A DNA stretch of 64,000 bases from Streptacidiphilus jiangxiensis (lineage in GTDB: Bacteria; Actinomycetota; Actinomycetes; Streptomycetales; Streptomycetaceae): contig NZ_FOAZ01000022.1 of NCBI RefSeq assembly GCF_900109465.1, forward strand, positions 62,001-126,000, given 5' to 3'. The position numbers and the translations under genes were made by a program. Positions 647 through 8,221 of the stretch are shown one piece after another. Below the pieces are notes generated by a model. The model did no database searches, had not been told where the DNA came from, and saw only the letters and a list, made by a program, of their open reading frames with translations. Within the stretch, counting starts at the first letter, position 1. Each line of letters opens with the position of its first letter.

Positions 647-1285
647 ATGTCACCACGGCGGGCGGCAGTCAACGAAGTCATGCGGGCCCGGTCCCGCGAG
701 CGCATCATGCAGGCGGCCGTGGAGCTGATCGGGCGTCGTGGCTTCAACCAGGTGACGCTCGCCGACATCGCGGAGCGGGCCGGGGTCGCCCGCGGCCTGG
801 TCTCGTACTACTTCCCCGGCAAGCGCTTCCTGCTGCAGACCGCGATGCACCGGCACATGCACACCACTCTCGCGGCGGCGCTGCGCCCGCTGGGCGACCC
901 GGCGAGCCCGGCGCACACCGACGACCCGGACGCCTGGCTGGCCACCGCGATCGACGCGGTCACCGGCCTGGCGGTGGACGAGCCGACGCTGATGCGGACA
1001 CACCTGTCGCTGATCCTGGCACCGTTGGACGGGGTGTTCGTGCAGGACGAGGAGCAGCAGGAGCTCGGTCGGCTGCTGCAGGAGGTGCTGCGCCGGCGCG
1101 GCTCGACCGATCCGGCCGCGGAGCACGCGGTGCTGCGGAGCGCGCTGATGGGCGCGTGCATCGGCATGCTGCTGCCGGGGGCCGAGTCGCCGGCCGCGTT
1201 GATCCGCGCGGACCTGTTCGCCCGCTACGGCCTGGACCCCGACCTCGGGCCCCGCCACGGCGGGACCGGGCTCACGCCTCCTTGA
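647..1285 (+). CDS. TetR/AcrR-family transcriptional regulator
   Basis: A 212-residue one-component repressor. The N-terminal helix-turn-helix spans roughly residues 15-60, with the family signature in RERIMQAAVELIGRRG, VTLADIAERAGVARGLVSYYF and the following phenylalanine/lysine turn. The rest is the variable helical ligand-binding and dimerisation domain, so the inducer cannot be predicted. The ATG at 647 has a modest GGGAG ribosome site just upstream. Its 3' end overlaps the convergent XRE gene by 14 bases. Likely targets are itself and neighbours such as the transporter upstream (inference). Confidence 0.9.
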   Translation: MSPRRAAVNEVMRARSRERIMQAAVELIGRRGFNQVTLADIAERAGVARGLVSYYFPGKRFLLQTAMHRHMHTTLAAALRPLGDPASPAHTDDPDAWLATAIDAVTGLAVDEPTLMRTHLSLILAPLDGVFVQDEEQQELGRLLQEVLRRRGSTDPAAEHAVLRSALMGACIGMLLPGAESPAALIRADLFARYGLDPDLGPRHGGTGLTPP

Positions 1286-2135
1286 GCAGCCCCGACAGCA
1301 GCTCGACCGTCTGCTCCGGCGTCAGGCTGTCGACGCTGAGGCGTTCCATCACCTGGATGTAGGCGTCCACGTCGTCACGCTTGTCGAGGTAGAGCGCGCT
1401 GGTGAGCTGCTCCAGGTAGACCACGTCCGGCAGGTCCTGCTCGGGGAAGCGGAGGATGGAGAACGCGCCCGTCTCGGCGGCGTGACCGCCGAACCGGAAG
1501 GGCATCACCTGGAGGACGATGTTGGGCAGTTCGGAGACCTCGATCAGGTGCTGGACCTGGGCCCGCATCACGTCGCGGCCGCCGATGGGACGGCGCAGCG
1601 CGGCCTCGTCGATGACGGCCCACAGGCGCGGGCCGGTGCCCTCGGTGATCATGCGCTGGCGGCGCATCCGGAGGTCGACGCGGTGCTCGATCTCCTCGGA
1701 CTGCATGTGCGGGCGGTTGAGGCCCATGATGGAGCGGGCGTACTCGGGGGTCTGCAGCAGGCCGGGGATGAACTGCACCTCGTAGGTGCGGATCAGGGCC
1801 GCGGACTCCTCCAGGCCGACGTAGGTCTGGAACCAGTTGGGCATGGCGTCGCTGAAACTGTGCCACCACCCGTTCTGGTTGGCCTCGCGAACCAGCGTCA
1901 GCAGCTGGCCGCGCTCGGACTCGTCGACCCCGTACAGGCTGAGCAGATCCACGACGTCCCGCTCCTTGAAGCTGACGCGCCCCAACTCCATGCGGGAGAT
2001 CTTCGATTCGGAGGCCCGGATCGTGTAGCCGGCGTCCTCGCGCGAGATGCCCTTGGCCTCACGCAGGCGACGCAGCTGGGAGCCGAGGAGGATGCGGCGG
2101 ACCATCGAACCGCCCCCCGGCTGAACCGTGGTCAT
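1272..2135 (-). CDS. XRE-family regulator with DUF5753 (WhiJ-like)
   Basis: A 287-residue DNA-binding protein. The helix-turn-helix is at about residues 17-75 (LGSQLRRLREAKGISREDAG, then ASESKISRMELGR). It is followed by the DUF5753 domain typical of Streptomyces WhiJ-like regulators (YEVQFIPGLLQTPEYAR, then DLRMRRQRMI and the LPNIVLQVMPF core). The ATG at 2135 is preceded by GTGGAGG at good spacing. It is divergent from an HATPase gene, with a DUF397 gene beyond; this trio is a recurrent actinobacterial developmental or antibiotic-control module. In the model system (WhiJ) the XRE protein represses and the DUF397 protein relieves repression. That function here is inferred from family and context. 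Confidence 0.9.
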   Translation of the reverse strand: MTTVQPGGGSMVRRILLGSQLRRLREAKGISREDAGYTIRASESKISRMELGRVSFKERDVVDLLSLYGVDESERGQLLTLVREANQNGWWHSFSDAMPNWFQTYVGLEESAALIRTYEVQFIPGLLQTPEYARSIMGLNRPHMQSEEIEHRVDLRMRRQRMITEGTGPRLWAVIDEAALRRPIGGRDVMRAQVQHLIEVSELPNIVLQVMPFRFGGHAAETGAFSILRFPEQDLPDVVYLEQLTSALYLDKRDDVDAYIQVMERLSVDSLTPEQTVELLSGLLKEA

Positions 2136-2478
2136 TCCGTCGAACCTCCACCCACTGGCAACAGGGCCAGTCTGCCACTGTCAGGCACTGTCCGGGCGCG
2201 CATCGTGCCCGGTTGTTCACGCGTCGGTCAAGATTGGCGCGCGGACATGCCCTCGTCATCGCACTGTGCAATCACATGATGACACTCTGCACGGGAATCT
2301 GCACGTGCATCTGCAAGACATGCGGATGCACGTGAATCCACTCTTGCATCTGACGTATGCGAAGAGGACCATGGGACGCGTGCACCTGCACGCCCCGAGG
2401 CAATCCGCCGAGAACGCCGAGATTCCGCCCCGCACGCCGACACCGGACGGGGCCGCGCCCGCATGGGAGGAGCTCTTC
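2136..2478. promoter_or_regulatory. divergent control region with iterated 12-bp TGCA repeats
   Basis: This gap separates the XRE gene from the HATPase gene. Three adjacent 12-mers beginning CTGCA lie at 2287 (CTGCACGGGAAT), 2299 (CTGCACGTGCAT) and 2311 (CTGCAAGACATG), with a related ATGCACGTGAAT at 2326. The perfect palindrome TGCACGTGCA at 2300-2309 also occurs upstream of the DUF397 gene (3411-3420). This is the best candidate binding region for the XRE protein. The frame is open from 2128, but the only strong ribosome site is that before 2479, so the stretch is treated as non-coding leader. Confidence 0.6.
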
Positions 2479-3000
2479 ATGGGCCTGAGCCCGGCGGTGG
2501 CAGCGGACCGTGAGTCGATCGTGAGCTGTGCGCTGGCGCCGCGGCACGAATCGGTCCGCACGGCACGCGAGTTCACCCGGCTGACGCTCAACCGCTGGGA
2601 GTGCGGCGAGCTCTTCGACGACGTCGCCCTGGTGGCAAGCGAGTTGGTGACCAACGCGCTGCGCTACGGCCTCCCCTCGGTGGTGCCCGAGCAGCGCGGC
2701 AGCTGGCCCCGGCGCGGCGCGGCAAGCCCGATCGGCGACCGGATGGACGCCGCCCTGGACGCCGATCAGGACGCGGTGCACCCCCTGATCCGGCTCAGCC
2801 TGGTCCGCAACGACCCACAGGTGGTCTGTGCCGTCAGCGACCCGAGCGAGCGGGGCCCGGTCCCGCGCGAGGCCGACTGGATAGCGGAGTCCGGACGCGG
2901 CCTGCACCTGGTGGAGTCCTTCAGCAAGTCCTGGGGCTGGCACCCGATCGCCGTCGGCAAGGTGGTCTGGGCAGCCTTCGAGCACCGTGTCCGGGACTGA
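2479..3000 (+). CDS. ATP-binding protein, HATPase_c anti-sigma-factor-kinase-like
   Basis: A 173-residue protein of the small GHKL ATPase family common beside WhiJ-like regulators. The N box is in DVALVASELVTNALRYG. A later G box (ESGRGLHLVESFSKSWGW) completes the ATP pocket. The start at 2479 is chosen because GGAGGAG lies six bases upstream and gives the usual family length; upstream ATGs at 2326 and 2371 would add an unconserved leader. Between N and G boxes is an unconserved insert containing WPRRGAASPIGDRMDAALDA. Such proteins resemble SpoIIAB/RsbW, but a partner sigma factor is not evident here. Confidence 0.85.
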   Translation: MGLSPAVAADRESIVSCALAPRHESVRTAREFTRLTLNRWECGELFDDVALVASELVTNALRYGLPSVVPEQRGSWPRRGAASPIGDRMDAALDADQDAVHPLIRLSLVRNDPQVVCAVSDPSERGPVPREADWIAESGRGLHLVESFSKSWGWHPIAVGKVVWAAFEHRVRD

Positions 3001-3025
3001 GGTCCCACCCGACCTGGAGACCAAG

Positions 3026-3061
3026 GGGGAAGGCCCGGGAGCGAGCTCCCGGGCCTTCCCC
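3026..3061. terminator. strong bidirectional hairpin terminator
   Basis: Two perfectly complementary 17-base arms (3026-3042 and 3045-3061; GGGGAAGGCCCGGGAGC and its complement) are separated by two bases. The hairpin lies between the convergent HATPase and DUF397 genes and can stop transcription of both. There is no U-tract, which is usual in this genus. A tandem ATGGCTGCTTC duplication follows at about 3065-3086. Confidence 0.8.
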
Positions 3062-3104
3062 TTCATGGCTGCTTCATGGCTGCTTCACTGCTGCACCACT
3101 GCGC

Positions 3105-3341
3105 TCACTCGGCGAGGTGGTCGAACTCCCCGGCCTTCACGCCGTGCAGGAGGGCGACGATCTCCGCCTTGGTGTAGATGAGGGCCGGCCCGTCGGGAAA
3201 GCGGGAGTTGCGGACCGCGACGTCCCCGTCGGCCAGCCGCGCCAGCTCGACGCAGTTGCCCTGCGAGTTGCTCATCCGAGCCTTCTGCCAGACCACTCCC
3301 TCAAGTTCCGTGGCGGCGATGCCGTTGTGGATGCGACGCAT
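3105..3341 (-). CDS. DUF397 protein (WhiJ-partner-like)
   Basis: A 78-residue protein with the DUF397 signature: a tryptophan-lysine pair (VVWQKARMSNSQGNCVELA), then a short strand with GDVAVRNSRFPDGPALIYT and the C-terminal AEIVALLHGVKAGEFD. The ATG at 3341 has GGGGAG at good spacing; an upstream in-frame ATG at 3389 lacks this. Small DUF397 proteins are thought to bind and antagonise the partner XRE/DUF5753 regulator (known for WhiJ-type pairs; inferred here). It is transcribed from its own promoter region, which carries the same TGCACGTGCA palindrome as the XRE/HATPase control region. Confidence 0.9.
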   Translation of the reverse strand: MRRIHNGIAATELEGVVWQKARMSNSQGNCVELARLADGDVAVRNSRFPDGPALIYTKAEIVALLHGVKAGEFDHLAE

Positions 3342-3726
3342 AGGTATCTCCCCGGATCGTGCGAGCGGTGCACCATGCAGCGGTCTCACTGCCGGTGATG
3401 ATATCGCCAGTGCACGTGCACGTGCAGGTGCTTATGCGTGTGCACATGCGTTTACATGAGGTGACAGATTCCTTTACACAGCAGGGAGTTGACCGCCCGA
3501 AACGGGCAAATCCGGGCGGACGGTTGTCGCTCTCGGCTACCGGCGCACTGCGGGGCGCCAACAACGGCCCTCATGATCGACAGCATGGAGCTCCCCCGTG
3601 ACACACAGTCAGTAATCATGTGTCTCTTCCATCTATGTGACGCTGCTCACGCTCGCTCGGTTCAAACGGCAGGTATAAGGGGACCCGCCTCCCTTACGGC
3701 GAACGGATGACCTACGATCGTCCCCC
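3342..3726. promoter_or_regulatory. control region between DUF397 and CbiX-like genes
   Basis: Overlapping TGCACGTGCA palindromes lie at 3411-3420 and 3417-3426 (the second ends in AGG), with further TGCA units at 3369, 3376 and 3441. These match the repeats upstream of the HATPase gene. Further right, TGTGACGCTGCTCAC at 3636-3650 resembles a Crp-type site. TACGAT at 3713-3718 could be a -10 element placing transcription start almost at the ATG of the CbiX-like gene, which has no clear ribosome site and may be leaderless. No convincing gene is present. Confidence 0.45.
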
Positions 3727-4899: not shown

Positions 4900-5919
4900 T
4901 CAGGAAGCCGCCGCGCCCGTCGAACCGCGGACGACCAGCTCGGGCTGGAAGACGAACTCGCCGCGCTGCGCCGGGTTGCCGCCGATCTCCTCGAGCAGGA
5001 CGTTGACCGCGGCCGCGCCCATCGCCTCGACCGGCTGGCGGATGGTGGTCAGCGGCGGGTCGGCGAAGGCGATCAGCGGCGAGTCGTCGAAGCCGACGAC
5101 GGAGACGTCCTTGGGGACGGAGAGGCCGCGGGCGCGGGCGCCGCGGATCGCGCCGAAGGCCATCAGGTCGCTGCCGCACACGATCGCCGTGCAGCCCTTG
5201 TCGAGCAGGACGTTCGCCGCGGCCTGGCCGCCCTCGACGGTGAAGAGCGAGTGCTGGATCAGCCCCTGCGCCTCCCCCTCGGACAGGCCCAGCACCTCGC
5301 GCAGCGCGGCGACGAAGCCCTCCTCCTTGCGCAGGACGGGCACGAAGCGGGAGGGGCCGACCGCCAGGCCGATCCGCTCGTGGCCGAGGCCGGCCAGGTG
5401 GCGGACGGCCATCCACATCGCGGCGCGGTCGTCCGGGGAGATGAACGGCGCGGAGACCTTCTCGCTGAAGCCGTTGATCATCACGAAGGGGACGCCCTGC
5501 CCCTGCAGCCTGTCGTAGCGCGCCGTGTCGGCCGTCGTGTCCGCGTGCAGACCGGAGACGAAGACGATGCCGGTCACCCCGCGCTCGACCAGCATCTCGA
5601 CCAGCTCGTCCTCGGTCGAGCCGCCGGGCGTCTGGGTGCACAGCACGGGCGTGTAGCCGTAGCGGGTCAGCACCTGCTCGATGACCTGGGCCAGCGCCGG
5701 GAAGATCGGGTTGCTCAACTCCGGGGTGATCAGCCCGATCAGGCCCGCGCTGCGCTGCCGCAGGCGGGTGGGGCGCTCGTAGCCGAGCACGTCGAGGGCG
5801 GCCAGCACCGTCTGACGCGTCGCCGCCGCCACTCCGGGCTTTCCGTTCAGCACACGGGAGACGGTGGCCTCACTGACCCCCGCCTGCGCCGCGATGTCCG
5901 CCAACCGCGCTGTGTTCAC
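4900..5919 (-). CDS. LacI-family regulator, MalR-like paralogue 1
   Basis: A 339-residue repressor. The LacI DNA-binding head is at residues 4-60 (ARLADIAAQAGVSEATVSRV, then NGKPGV), followed by the hinge and a periplasmic-binding-protein-like sugar domain ending in VVGFDDSPLIAFADPPLTTI. It shares long identical stretches with the second LacI regulator at 7148-8221 (PVLCTQTPGGSTEDELV and VERGVTGIVFVSGLHADT occur in both), so the two are recent paralogues. It is the last gene of the maltose operon, 11 bases after the MFS gene. Maltose or maltodextrin is the likely effector by context. Confidence 0.9.
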   Translation of the reverse strand: MNTARLADIAAQAGVSEATVSRVLNGKPGVAAATRQTVLAALDVLGYERPTRLRQRSAGLIGLITPELSNPIFPALAQVIEQVLTRYGYTPVLCTQTPGGSTEDELVEMLVERGVTGIVFVSGLHADTTADTARYDRLQGQGVPFVMINGFSEKVSAPFISPDDRAAMWMAVRHLAGLGHERIGLAVGPSRFVPVLRKEEGFVAALREVLGLSEGEAQGLIQHSLFTVEGGQAAANVLLDKGCTAIVCGSDLMAFGAIRGARARGLSVPKDVSVVGFDDSPLIAFADPPLTTIRQPVEAMGAAAVNVLLEEIGGNPAQRGEFVFQPELVVRGSTGAAAS

Positions 5920-5930
5920 GGCACCGAAGC

Positions 5931-7148
5931 CTATTGCACGGACAGCCGTTCGCCCGATGTTTCTTCCAGGTCAGAGGCCGCGGATCGGCGCGGCAGACGG
6001 AACGAGAGCGCCAGAGCGGCCAGTGCCGCCACCGCGGGGACGTGGTAACCGGTGCCGGGCGGTGCGTGGTCGACGAGCCGGCCGCCCACCGCCGTGCCCG
6101 CGGAGATGCCCACGAGCAGGCCGGTCGTGGTCCAGGTGAAGCCCTCCGTCAGGCGTGACGGCGGCACCAGCTCCGCGACCAGGCCCATGCTGGTGGACAT
6201 GGTCGGCGCCGTGGCGAAGCCCGCGACCAGCAGGATCGCGCCGACCGTCCACAACCCGCCGGCGAGCGGCAGCGGCGCCAGCGTCGCCGTCATCGCGGCC
6301 AGCGCCCACCGCAACCGGACGACGGCGGGTCCGCGGGGCCGCCACAGGCCCAGCAGCACGCCGGAGAGCGCGGAGCCGAGCGCGTAGCAGGCCAGCACCA
6401 GGCCCGCCGCGGCCTTGTGGCCGTGCGCCTGGGCGAAACCGATCGTGGTGATCTCCATGGTGCCGAAGACGACGCCGGTGGCCGTCAGCATCAGCACCAG
6501 TGCGGCGACGCCCGGCGCGCGCAGCGCACTGCCGGAGGCGGCGGCCGCCACGGGACCGGCCGGAGGCGGCTCGGTGCGGCGCTGGGCGGCCAGGGCCAGC
6601 ACGCCCACGAGCGAGAGCGTGCCCGCCGTCAGGTAGCCGGTGAGCGGCGAGATGCCGGTGGCGAGCGCGGTCGCGGCCAGCGGGCCGAGGACGAAGCAGA
6701 GTTCGTCGACGACTCCCTCGTAGGCGTAGGCGGTGTGCAGCACCGCCTGGTCGCCGCGATGCAGGTGGGCCCAGCGGGCGCGGGCCAGCGAGCCGGTGTT
6801 CGGGCCGAGGCCGCTGACGACGCAGCCGAGCAGGTAGAGCCCGACGGGGGCGCGCAGCTCCAGCGCGAGCAGGACGCCCACACCACCGAGGGTGGCCAGC
6901 ACCGCGGCGGGCACGGCGACCCGGGACTGGCCGTAGCGGTCCACCAGGCGGGCCTGCCAGGGCCCCGCCAGGGCGACGGTGACCAGCGCGGCGGCGCCGC
7001 CGAGCCCCGCCAGGCTGTAGGAGCCGTGGAGCGAGGTGACCAGCAGCGTCGCCGCCAGCGAGGACATGCCGACGGGGAAGCGCGCCACCAGCACGGCCAG
7101 CGTGAAGCCGACCGCGCCGCGTGGCGCGAACAGGGCGCGGTAGGACAT
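5931..7148 (-). CDS. MFS transporter
   Basis: A 405-residue protein with about 12 hydrophobic segments in two blocks of six, separated by a hydrophilic loop (QRRTEPPPAGP). A basic loop after the second helix (ARLVDRYGQSRV) is the usual major-facilitator motif position. The ATG at 7148 overlaps the TGA of the upstream LacI gene by one base (TGATG), implying coupled translation; the longer open frame upstream is antisense or overlapping noise. The position between two maltose-type regulators suggests sugar or sugar-product export, but the substrate cannot be read from sequence. Confidence 0.85.
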   Translation of the reverse strand: MSYRALFAPRGAVGFTLAVLVARFPVGMSSLAATLLVTSLHGSYSLAGLGGAAALVTVALAGPWQARLVDRYGQSRVAVPAAVLATLGGVGVLLALELRAPVGLYLLGCVVSGLGPNTGSLARARWAHLHRGDQAVLHTAYAYEGVVDELCFVLGPLAATALATGISPLTGYLTAGTLSLVGVLALAAQRRTEPPPAGPVAAAASGSALRAPGVAALVLMLTATGVVFGTMEITTIGFAQAHGHKAAAGLVLACYALGSALSGVLLGLWRPRGPAVVRLRWALAAMTATLAPLPLAGGLWTVGAILLVAGFATAPTMSTSMGLVAELVPPSRLTEGFTWTTTGLLVGISAGTAVGGRLVDHAPPGTGYHVPAVAALAALALSFRLPRRSAASDLEETSGERLSVQ

Positions 7149-8221
7149 CAGCGCCCGGCGCCCGCCGAGGGGGCGGCGCCGGTGGAGCCGCGCACGACGA
7201 GCTCGGGCTGGAAGACGAACTCGGCGCGGTGCGCGGGCGTGCCGCTGATCTCCTCCAGCAGCGCGTCGACCGCCGCCTGGCCCATCGCCTCGACCGGCTT
7301 GCGGATCGTGGTCAGCGGCGGGTCGGCGAAGGCGATCAGCGGGGAGTCGTCGAAGCCGACCACCGACACGTCGCCGGGGACGGCCAGGCCGCGCTGGCGG
7401 GCGGCGCGGATGACGCCGAAGGCCATCAGGTCGCTGCCGCACACGATCGCCGTGCAGCCCTTGTCGAGCAGCCGCGCGCCGGCGGCGTGCCCGCCCTCGA
7501 CGGTGAACAGCGAGTGCTGGACCAGGTCCCGCGCGCCCTCCTCGGTCAGACCGAACAGCTCCTGGGCGGCCTCGGTGAAGCCCTCCAACTTGCGTGCCAC
7601 CGGCACGAAGCGGGTCGGGCCGACGGCCAGGCCGACCTTCTCGTGGCCGAGTTCGGCGAGGTGGCGCAGGGCCATGCCCATCGCAGCACGGTCGTCGGGC
7701 GAGACGAAGGAGGCGTCGATGCGCTCGCTGTAGCCGTCCATCAGCACGAACGGCACGCCGCGACCGGCGAGTCGGGCGTAGCGCTCGTGGTCGGCGCTGG
7801 TGTCGGCGTGCAGGCCGGAGACGAAGACGATGCCGGTCACACCGCGTTCGACGAGCAGGTCGACGAGCTCGTCCTCGGTCGAGCCGCCGGGGGTCTGGGT
7901 GCACAGCACGGGCGTGTAGCCGTGCCGGGTGAGCACCTGCTCGATGACCTGGGCCAGCGCGGGGAAGATCGGGTTGCTGAGCTCGGGGATGATGAGCCCG
8001 ATCAGGCCGGCGCTGCGCTGCCGCAGCTTGACCGGCCGGTCGTAGCCGAGCACGTCGAGGGCGGCCAGCACGGTCTGCCGGGTGGAGCCGGAGACGCCCG
8101 CCTTGCCGTTGAGGACACGGGAGACGGTGGCCTCGCTGACGCCGGCCTGGGCGGCGATATCCGCCAGCCGGGCCGGTGCCTGCGGCGGCACCGGCGTGCC
8201 GACCTGTGGGGGAACGGTCAT
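7148..8221 (-). CDS. malR: LacI-family regulator, MalR-like paralogue 2
   Basis: A 357-residue LacI/GalR repressor. A proline-rich leader of about 18 residues precedes the helix-turn-helix (ARLADIAAQAGVSEATVSRV), then the sugar-binding domain ends in FVFQPELVVRGSTGAAPSAG. The ATG at 8221 is one base after the alpha-glucosidase stop. Of the two paralogues, this one directly follows the alpha-glucosidase and is the more likely regulator of the malEFG operon. In Streptomyces coelicolor MalR binds CTTGCAG-type repeats, and an inverted repeat of that sequence precedes malE here. The assignment is by homology and context. Confidence 0.85.
   Translation of the reverse strand: MTVPPQVGTPVPPQAPARLADIAAQAGVSEATVSRVLNGKAGVSGSTRQTVLAALDVLGYDRPVKLRQRSAGLIGLIIPELSNPIFPALAQVIEQVLTRHGYTPVLCTQTPGGSTEDELVDLLVERGVTGIVFVSGLHADTSADHERYARLAGRGVPFVLMDGYSERIDASFVSPDDRAAMGMALRHLAELGHEKVGLAVGPTRFVPVARKLEGFTEAAQELFGLTEEGARDLVQHSLFTVEGGHAAGARLLDKGCTAIVCGSDLMAFGVIRAARQRGLAVPGDVSVVGFDDSPLIAFADPPLTTIRKPVEAMGQAAVDALLEEISGTPAHRAEFVFQPELVVRGSTGAAPSAGAGR

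Follow-up and report, generated by a model that had tools for sequence, protein, structure and literature searches.

In a 64,000 nucleotide stretch of the Streptacidiphilus jiangxiensis genome (contig NZ_FOAZ01000022.1, positions 62,001 to 126,000; this whole stretch is the window, and all coordinates below refer to it), three neighboring genes encode an XRE-type regulator, a HATPase protein and a DUF397 protein. The HATPase and DUF397 promoter regions of this trio carry arrays of the word TGCA on a 6-bp grid, an arrangement that is conserved across the Streptomycetaceae, recurs at set positions relative to the predicted promoters, and is associated with trios of this kind. It is likely that the XRE protein binds this operator at both promoters and controls both genes in a largely local feedback loop.

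The XRE regulator (1272..2135, minus strand; 287 amino acids) is WhiJ-like and combines HTH_31 and DUF5753 domains (Pfam PF13560 and PF19054, both above cut-off). The AbaA-like HATPase_c_2 protein (2479..3000, plus strand; 173 amino acids from a reassigned start) matches PF13581 at 34.1 bits against a cut-off of 27.4, and the BldB-like DUF397 protein (3105..3341, minus strand; 78 amino acids) matches PF04149 at 63.3 bits against a cut-off of 24, in agreement with an alignment. The open reading frame list and the Pfam matches bear out the adjacency of these genes proposed from the sequence alone; with an XRE protein carrying helix-turn-helix (HTH) and DUF5753 domains, a HATPase_c_2 neighbor and a DUF397 neighbor, the locus is a trio of the known WhiJ/AbaA/BldB type. 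The genome measures 9.5 Mb, and the closest named XRE matches come from Streptacidiphilus species, with 98–99% identity over the XRE protein.

A TGCA ladder on a 6-bp grid

The sequence-only reading had placed the palindrome TGCACGTGCA in both control regions and had taken three CTGCA 12-mers as the repeating unit of a shared operator. The palindrome is present in both, with exact copies at 2300–2309, 3411–3420 and 3417–3426; with at most one mismatch allowed, the window holds 13 copies, as compared to 2.97 ± 1.55 in shuffled sequence, where none of 100 shuffles reached 13. The 12-mers at 2287–2322 are likewise present, as CTGCACGGGAAT, CTGCACGTGCAT and CTGCAAGACATG, but a 12-mer iteron array as the conserved unit was rejected: it recurs in only 4/79 related loci (L015–L018), all of them near relatives.

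Across the compared loci, the conserved unit is a set of TGCA words, here termed rungs, on a 6-bp grid. In the two control regions of the window, 10/21 and 8/12 TGCA pairs lie at multiples of 6 bp, a result reached by none of 2000 dinucleotide-preserving shuffles of either region, while 2 and 20 of the 2000 had at least as many TGCA words as the regions themselves (9 and 6). Across 19 hand-chosen representative loci, 247 of the 372 TGCA pairs lying within 48 bp of each other fall on multiples of 6 (62 expected). Among 31 tetramers forming 25 or more pairs, TGCA scores highest (0.66; median word, 0.21); the next tetramers, GCAC (0.65) and GTGC (0.56), both overlap TGCA. The 6-bp excess was found in each of 14 clades, from 33/93 pairs in the weakest (g2) up to 11/11 (g5).

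To follow the operator across the family, 80 Streptomycetaceae loci were compared: 40 named loci, for which the clade labels are our own, and 40 hand-chosen from further genomes; two distant loci without a trio (L055, L056) were omitted, and loci of one genus do not count as independent. Within a 330-bp span at the gene start, TGCACGTGCA was found at the HATPase gene in 79/79 loci that possess one and at the DUF397 gene in 70/78. The XRE gene start scored 71/80, a figure kept high by the divergent intergenic region that this gene usually has in common with HATPase. Nine loci are missing from that count: seven that are rearranged, the orphan L128, and L124, whose copy lies just outside the 330-bp span. 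In the same loci, 202 copies fall inside these promoter spans and 12 in the 566 kb outside them. The rearranged loci, in two genera (g2 and g4), are informative: with the XRE gene relocated, no TGCANNTGCA occurs within 350 bp upstream of it, and the HATPase and DUF397 arrays are retained. The orphan XRE gene of L128, for which neither partner was found, has no operator in 6.8 kb of sequence. On balance, the operator appears to track the HATPase and DUF397 promoters.

The operator also extends beyond the family. XRE matches at E ≤ 1e-70 were obtained in 75/246 genomes of the class, 53 of the 75 outside the family, and 29 loci from these 53 genomes were inspected. Exact TGCACGTGCA was found within 2.8–3.9 kb in 25/29, as compared to roughly 0.2 expected at 14 copies per 9.5 Mb, and a HATPase or DUF397 gene was recognized in 19/29. 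In family f17 (L215, L224), the arrangement TGCACGTGCA-N8-TGCA again sits beside the HATPase gene. Together, the presence of the palindrome in 25/29 of these loci and the f17 arrangement indicate that the operator is old. A search for the repeats at related loci, the check proposed in the sequence-only reading, thus found them present rather than absent (79/79, 70/78 and 25/29) and strongly supports a shared iterated operator at two trio promoters, with a 6-bp TGCANN grid and not the 12-mer as its unit.

Operator position at the two predicted promoters

At the HATPase gene, the operator TGCACGTGAATCCACTCTTGCAT (2327..2349, plus strand) has TGCA rungs at −40 and −22, counting from the first nucleotide of a putative −10 element, GACCAT (2367..2372, plus strand). 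The last rung lies within a putative −35 element, TTGCAT (2344–2349, plus strand), with the −10 element 17 bp past it. Upstream, a further TGCA cluster (2287..2322, plus strand; rungs at 2288, 2300, 2306 and 2312) contains the 2300–2309 palindrome and the three 12-mers, and by eye its palindrome occupies the aligned place in the 40 named loci. Downstream, TGCACCTGCA (2381..2390, plus strand) contributes rungs at +14 and +20 from the −10 element within the predicted 5′ leader, offsets that recur, often together with +8, in Streptacidiphilus- and Kitasatospora-type loci.

The −10 and −35 patterns were picked after inspecting the sequences, and all promoters are predicted. The form TTGCAT or TTGCAG, a spacer, and xASSAT describes 72/79 loci, the spacer being 17 bp in 69 of them and 18 bp in 3, and the remaining 7 carry TTGCAC or TTGCAG, N17 and ATAATG. 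The −40 rung, which was not part of this search pattern, is present within 1 bp in 79/79 loci with a HATPase gene; the −22 rung belongs to the −35 pattern used for the search. The −34 position is occupied in Streptomyces-type loci and in several other genera.

This layout bears on the start of the HATPase gene, which is very likely the ATG at 2479 that follows GGGAGGAGCTCTTC, with ribosome site GGGAGGAG, and not the ATG at 2371 from which the HATPase query used in our searches began. The 2371 start was rejected: the ATG sits at the −10 position, and its counterpart does not share the HATPase reading frame in 38/72 loci, so it is not a conserved start codon. Neither is a conserved leader peptide evident at this ATG, the out-of-frame versions spanning 1 to 304 codons.

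At the DUF397 gene, three TGCA rungs are packed into 16 bp (3411..3426, minus strand), two of them as overlapping TGCACGTGCA copies, at −11, −17 and −23 from a putative −10 element, TATCAT (3398..3403, minus strand). An additional rung stands at −41 (3441..3444, minus strand), and a −40 or −41 rung occurs in many related loci. TATCAT or TATGAT was found within 260 bp upstream of DUF397 in 77/78 loci (exception, L095); in 7 of these 77 it lies upstream of the array, and for clades g2 and g4, where TATCAT does so, the DUF397 start at that site is uncertain. Measured from TATCAT/TATGAT, the rungs fall mostly between −46 and −10 in 6-bp steps, with a clade-specific choice of positions: −40, −34 and −22 in 10/13 loci of the Streptomyces-type clade g9; −41, −23, −17 and −11 in 7/8 Streptacidiphilus loci; and −41, often −35, plus −17 and −11 in Kitasatospora-type loci.

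The candidate binder and a proposed feedback model

Genome-wide, exact TGCACGTGCA occurs 14 times in 9.5 Mb, three of them at the trio, and the reversed word 25 times, so the palindrome is not generally favored in this genome. Ten of the 11 other copies fall within open frames that are GC-rich at the third position (exception, L010); for L013 this is just a short frame on the minus strand. Of the 11, five (L002, L007, L009, L011 and L013) recur in one or more of five relatives, which is most simply explained by conservation of the coding sequence. With 10/11 off-trio copies in such coding-like frames, a wide regulon in this genome was rejected; a small regulon beyond the trio may exist, as the L194 ladder described below illustrates. 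The three-rung form of the operator has a single match in this genome. Searched over both strands of 61 genomes, TGCACGTGCA-N8-TGCA gave 91 matches in 48 genomes (none in 13, at most 4 per genome), and the reversed pattern gave 15. Seven of the nine g9 genomes have exactly two such sites, on opposite strands, 1.0–1.4 kb apart and beside the XRE gene; the other two have one each, and all g9 sites lie within about 1.5 kb of XRE matches.

The recognition-helix region of the window XRE protein, RASESKISRMELGR, is almost invariant among ladder-associated XRE proteins, and the orphan L128 carries S47G. Eleven operator sites judged by eye to lie away from the main trio were fetched, and 7 belong to a second, paralogous trio with the gene order HATPase-DUF397-XRE, an XRE protein 58–61% identical and a helix reading G/ASHAKISRLELGR/K. 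These seven loci carry the same operator core upstream of DUF397, between DUF397 and HATPase (L191 ends early and shows no HATPase); as they were located via the operator, its presence there is by selection. No trio was found at L192, L193 or L195, save for a weak HATPase-like match in L192. At eight paralogue loci with other recognition helices the ladder is absent: SCO1979-type trios in 4/5 g9 genomes, with the order DUF-XRE-HATPase and helices like THATIRRMEKAE, lack TGCANNTGCA; L202, L204 and L207 lack it as well, and L058 shows just one TGCA over 320 bp of upstream sequence. Nor was a 6-bp ladder of another word evident 5′ of the paralogues in the window's own genome.

Helix conservation, ladder-free paralogues and the few, near-trio sites together point to the trio's own XRE protein as the probable binder and to mainly local control, and the operator itself appears to be mostly local. 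As a separate observation, three SCO1979-type trios (L196, L197 and L198) share a recurring word upstream of the XRE gene, roughly ATTTGCAGA, AATTGCAGA or AAATGCAGA, which is perhaps the operator of that paralogue.

Taken together, a model for the trio can be proposed. The XRE protein would dock, perhaps cooperatively as the sequence-only reading had it, on a dedicated operator of TGCA half-sites spaced on the 6-bp grid, with an array at each of the HATPase and DUF397 promoters. The HATPase array spans approximately −52 to −30, its last rung within the putative −35 element and beside a weak −10; an activator in contact with RNA polymerase would sit there, so the XRE protein most likely switches HATPase on. 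The DUF397 promoter of the Streptomyces-type clade g9 is laid out in almost the same way. In Streptacidiphilus and Kitasatospora, extra rungs sit between the −35 and −10 elements or just downstream, where binding should repress, and these spacer and downstream rungs may provide repression at higher occupancy. By analogy with BldB and its paralogues, the DUF397 protein would restrain the XRE protein and close the loop. Work on WhiJ9 offers a precedent: this protein binds to three direct repeats, activation of iosA depends on it, and it apparently represses itself, its loss doubling whiJ9 transcription in a manner consistent with autorepression; BldB gave no DNA binding in chromatin immunoprecipitation sequencing (ChIP-seq) or surface plasmon resonance (SPR), and pairs with its paralogues (PMC10294661).

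Several observations sit uneasily with this model. Activation-like and repression-like rung positions differ between clades, and in the window the middle rungs of the HATPase array are degenerate (TGAA, CACT). The DUF397 promoter lacks the exact palindrome in 8/78 loci, 6 of which retain TGCANNTGCA and 2 of which have none. Outside the family, 10/29 loci have no recognized HATPase or DUF397 gene, 7 of these 10 carrying the palindrome all the same, and 4/29 lack the exact word, one of the 4 keeping TGCANNTGCA. Two XRE loci with the helix of the second trio were located independently of the operator and are less clear: L203 retains just TGCANNTGCA, in the stretch from DUF397 to HATPase, and L208, where the DNA examined shows no HATPase, has none. 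Five relatives together hold 50 off-trio palindromes, several in sequence without coding periodicity and some within hairpins. At L194 (G030:C3:191700-195700, from the window's genus), a ladder at positions 2027–2064 of that locus, with six TGCA starts within 35 bp, has no XRE, HATPase or DUF397 match in 4 kb, roughly 2 kb either side; this ladder may represent an additional target or a stray copy. Off-grid spacings of 21 bp (15/372 pairs) and 39 bp (21/372) are frequent, 21 bp amounting to two helical turns, and because the 6-bp step is close to half a helical turn, the geometry of the protein on this DNA is not obvious. A frame downstream of the L194 ladder reads MTIQRMDNVLIVVADLDAAIAFFVEL..., which looks glyoxalase-like.

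The strongest competing account holds that the XRE protein is a pure repressor of HATPase and DUF397, with rungs that block the polymerase and a DUF397 protein that relieves the repression. Streptacidiphilus- and Kitasatospora-type loci suit this account, with DUF397 rungs at −11 and −17 and HATPase rungs at +8 to +20, as does the earlier WhiJ model of repression relieved by a small neighbor (PMC4255298). However, the HATPase rungs at −40 and −22 fit an activator position in 79/79 loci, 72 of these with a poor −10, and WhiJ9 was required for activation of iosA (PMC10294661); pure repression is possible, although we lean against it. That the ladder is bound by a transcription factor other than the trio's XRE protein is improbable. 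The XRE–ladder pairing is read from sequence, TGCA words are simple and self-complementary, and the L194 ladder lies away from any trio; against this, almost all arrays are found at such trios (a single three-rung site in this genome, two in 7/9 g9 genomes), 7/11 of the other fetched sites belong to the second trio, paralogous trios with other recognition helices lack the ladder, and BldB itself showed no DNA binding in ChIP-seq or SPR (PMC10294661).

A type II toxin-antitoxin pair of XRE and DUF397 proteins with an autoregulatory operator, a role suggested before for XRE-DUF397 pairs (cited in passages of PMC10364602), would also place repeats at these genes. The same passages report that 14 DUF397 proteins overexpressed in S. 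coelicolor had no clear toxic effect (PMC10364602); moreover, the HATPase gene separates XRE and DUF397 in the window, and the XRE gene can be operator-free, which renders this account very improbable. Hardly credible at all is an origin of the repeats as a by-product of composition or of recent duplication in the lineage. Local slippage could generate overlapping TGCACG units, but shuffles fail to reproduce the repeats, the genome as a whole shows no excess of the word (14 copies, 25 reversed), and the rungs are conserved across families, so that the comparative data contradict such an origin.

Returning to the model of XRE binding at both promoters, neighboring rungs with a 6-bp step face opposite sides of the DNA, and every second rung, at a distance of 12 bp, comes back to almost the same side. 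QacR binds DNA as two interleaved dimers, and we speculate that a QacR-like arrangement would fit the 6-bp ladder. In a more elaborate version, which we hold doubtful as a whole, the grid would be an addressable cooperative lattice: XRE dimers would bind every 6 bp on alternating faces, the DUF397 protein would control the filling of the lattice, and individual rungs could be gained or lost in evolution while grid and promoter phase persist. A separate word would belong to every WhiJ-type paralogue, so that a code of recognition helix and word would keep the paralogous trios of one genome apart.

Relation to known trios

Gene clusters with the same three protein types are described for Streptomyces as WhiJ/AbaA/BldB-type trios (PMC4255298, PMC10294661). 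In the parts of these papers available, mapped binding repeats are given for WhiJ9 alone; here, a TGCA ladder with 6-bp steps is found at the HATPase and DUF397 promoters. The iosA-whiJ9-bldB9 locus of S. venezuelae resembles the window in its divergent region and in iterated sites adjoining the XRE gene, with WhiJ9 binding direct repeats. Those repeats, however, follow the consensus CGXXCTCAAC and are found 113 bp upstream of the iosA start site, whereas the rungs described here overlap the putative −35 element (passages of PMC10294661). A literature search found no paper that mentions TGCACGTGCA together with Streptomyces, subscription journals being mostly outside its scope, and the operator architecture is without an earlier description in the literature searched.

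Among the S. coelicolor trios, the window trio is probably the counterpart of SCO3421–SCO3424 rather than of SCO1979. SCO3421 is WhiJ-like and SCO3423 AbaA-like, and relatives of SCO3423 contain a TTA codon in 12/14 Streptomyces genomes and in K. setae (PMC4255298). The gene numbering fits the XRE-HATPase-DUF397 order, and the TTA pattern fits as well: in the aligned part of the HATPase gene, TTA occurs in 12/13 g9 loci, in 30/30 Kitasatospora-like loci and in 59/79 overall. The window's own HATPase copy (2479–3000), by contrast, has no TTA, the rare bldA codon, and the likeness is judged by description, gene order and TTA. In excerpts of PMC6767563 and PMC10771440, sco3424 is a sigma-E target with the ambiguous description 'similar to AbaA and BldB', and SCO3423 is bound by sigma-E under ethanol stress.

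The SCO1978–SCO1980 trio is of the same kind, and the NCBIfam label of the window XRE protein is Sco1979; SCO1979 binds upstream of its own gene, according to a passage of PMC12565409 citing Zhu et al. 2020. The window XRE protein scores 411 bits against NF058600, the Sco1979 equivalog model (cut-off, 350), but this model also accepts paralogues, with seven XRE genes above the cut-off in genome G124. In the g9 genomes G273, G079, G103 and G124, another gene scores 450–466 bits as compared to 385–395 for the window-type XRE, which is the best match in G226 and in this genome (G000). The Sco1979 label is therefore to be read with care, and as a statement of orthology it is not supported in 4/5 g9 genomes.

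A few further features of the locus are recorded here. A block reading GGCAGACTG lies 5′ of the XRE gene (window positions ~2168–2180), was seen by eye in most of the 40 named loci, and is possibly the XRE gene's own promoter element, distinct from the TGCA ladder. Sequence searches for structurally solved relatives returned none for the XRE protein at E 0.01 and none for the DUF397 protein at E 1, and a structure model of the DUF397 protein had no Foldseek match at E 0.001. In a single whole-protein AlphaFold2 model of the XRE protein (mean predicted local distance difference test score, pLDDT, 83), the DUF5753 region (residues ~90–287) is predicted to lie near phospholipase D/Nuc-type folds: SauUSI matched with Z 11.8 over 149 residues at 3.1 Å, followed by FAM83B (Z 11.1), TrmBL2 (Z 10.2) and Nuc (Z 9.8). 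The top Foldseek match by E-value was the XRE-PAS protein 3pxp, with a VIA alignment covering the HTH only. No HKD-type motif was seen by eye in the DUF5753 region, and the literature passages that name DUF5753 do not mention its fold. In the open reading frame list, neighboring frames in a row at 4900–7904 (minus strand) read as a LacI-type regulator, an MFS (major facilitator superfamily)-type transporter and, seemingly, a second LacI-type regulator.

Streptomycetes carry many paralogues of WhiJ, AbaA and BldB, which affect sporulation and antibiotic production and raise the question of how they work together. A precise operator that is conserved across families and sits mainly at the trio's own promoters makes this question directly testable. 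The scrambled gene orders indicate the likely target genes, and the contrast with the paralogous trios suggests how parallel modules avoid crosstalk.

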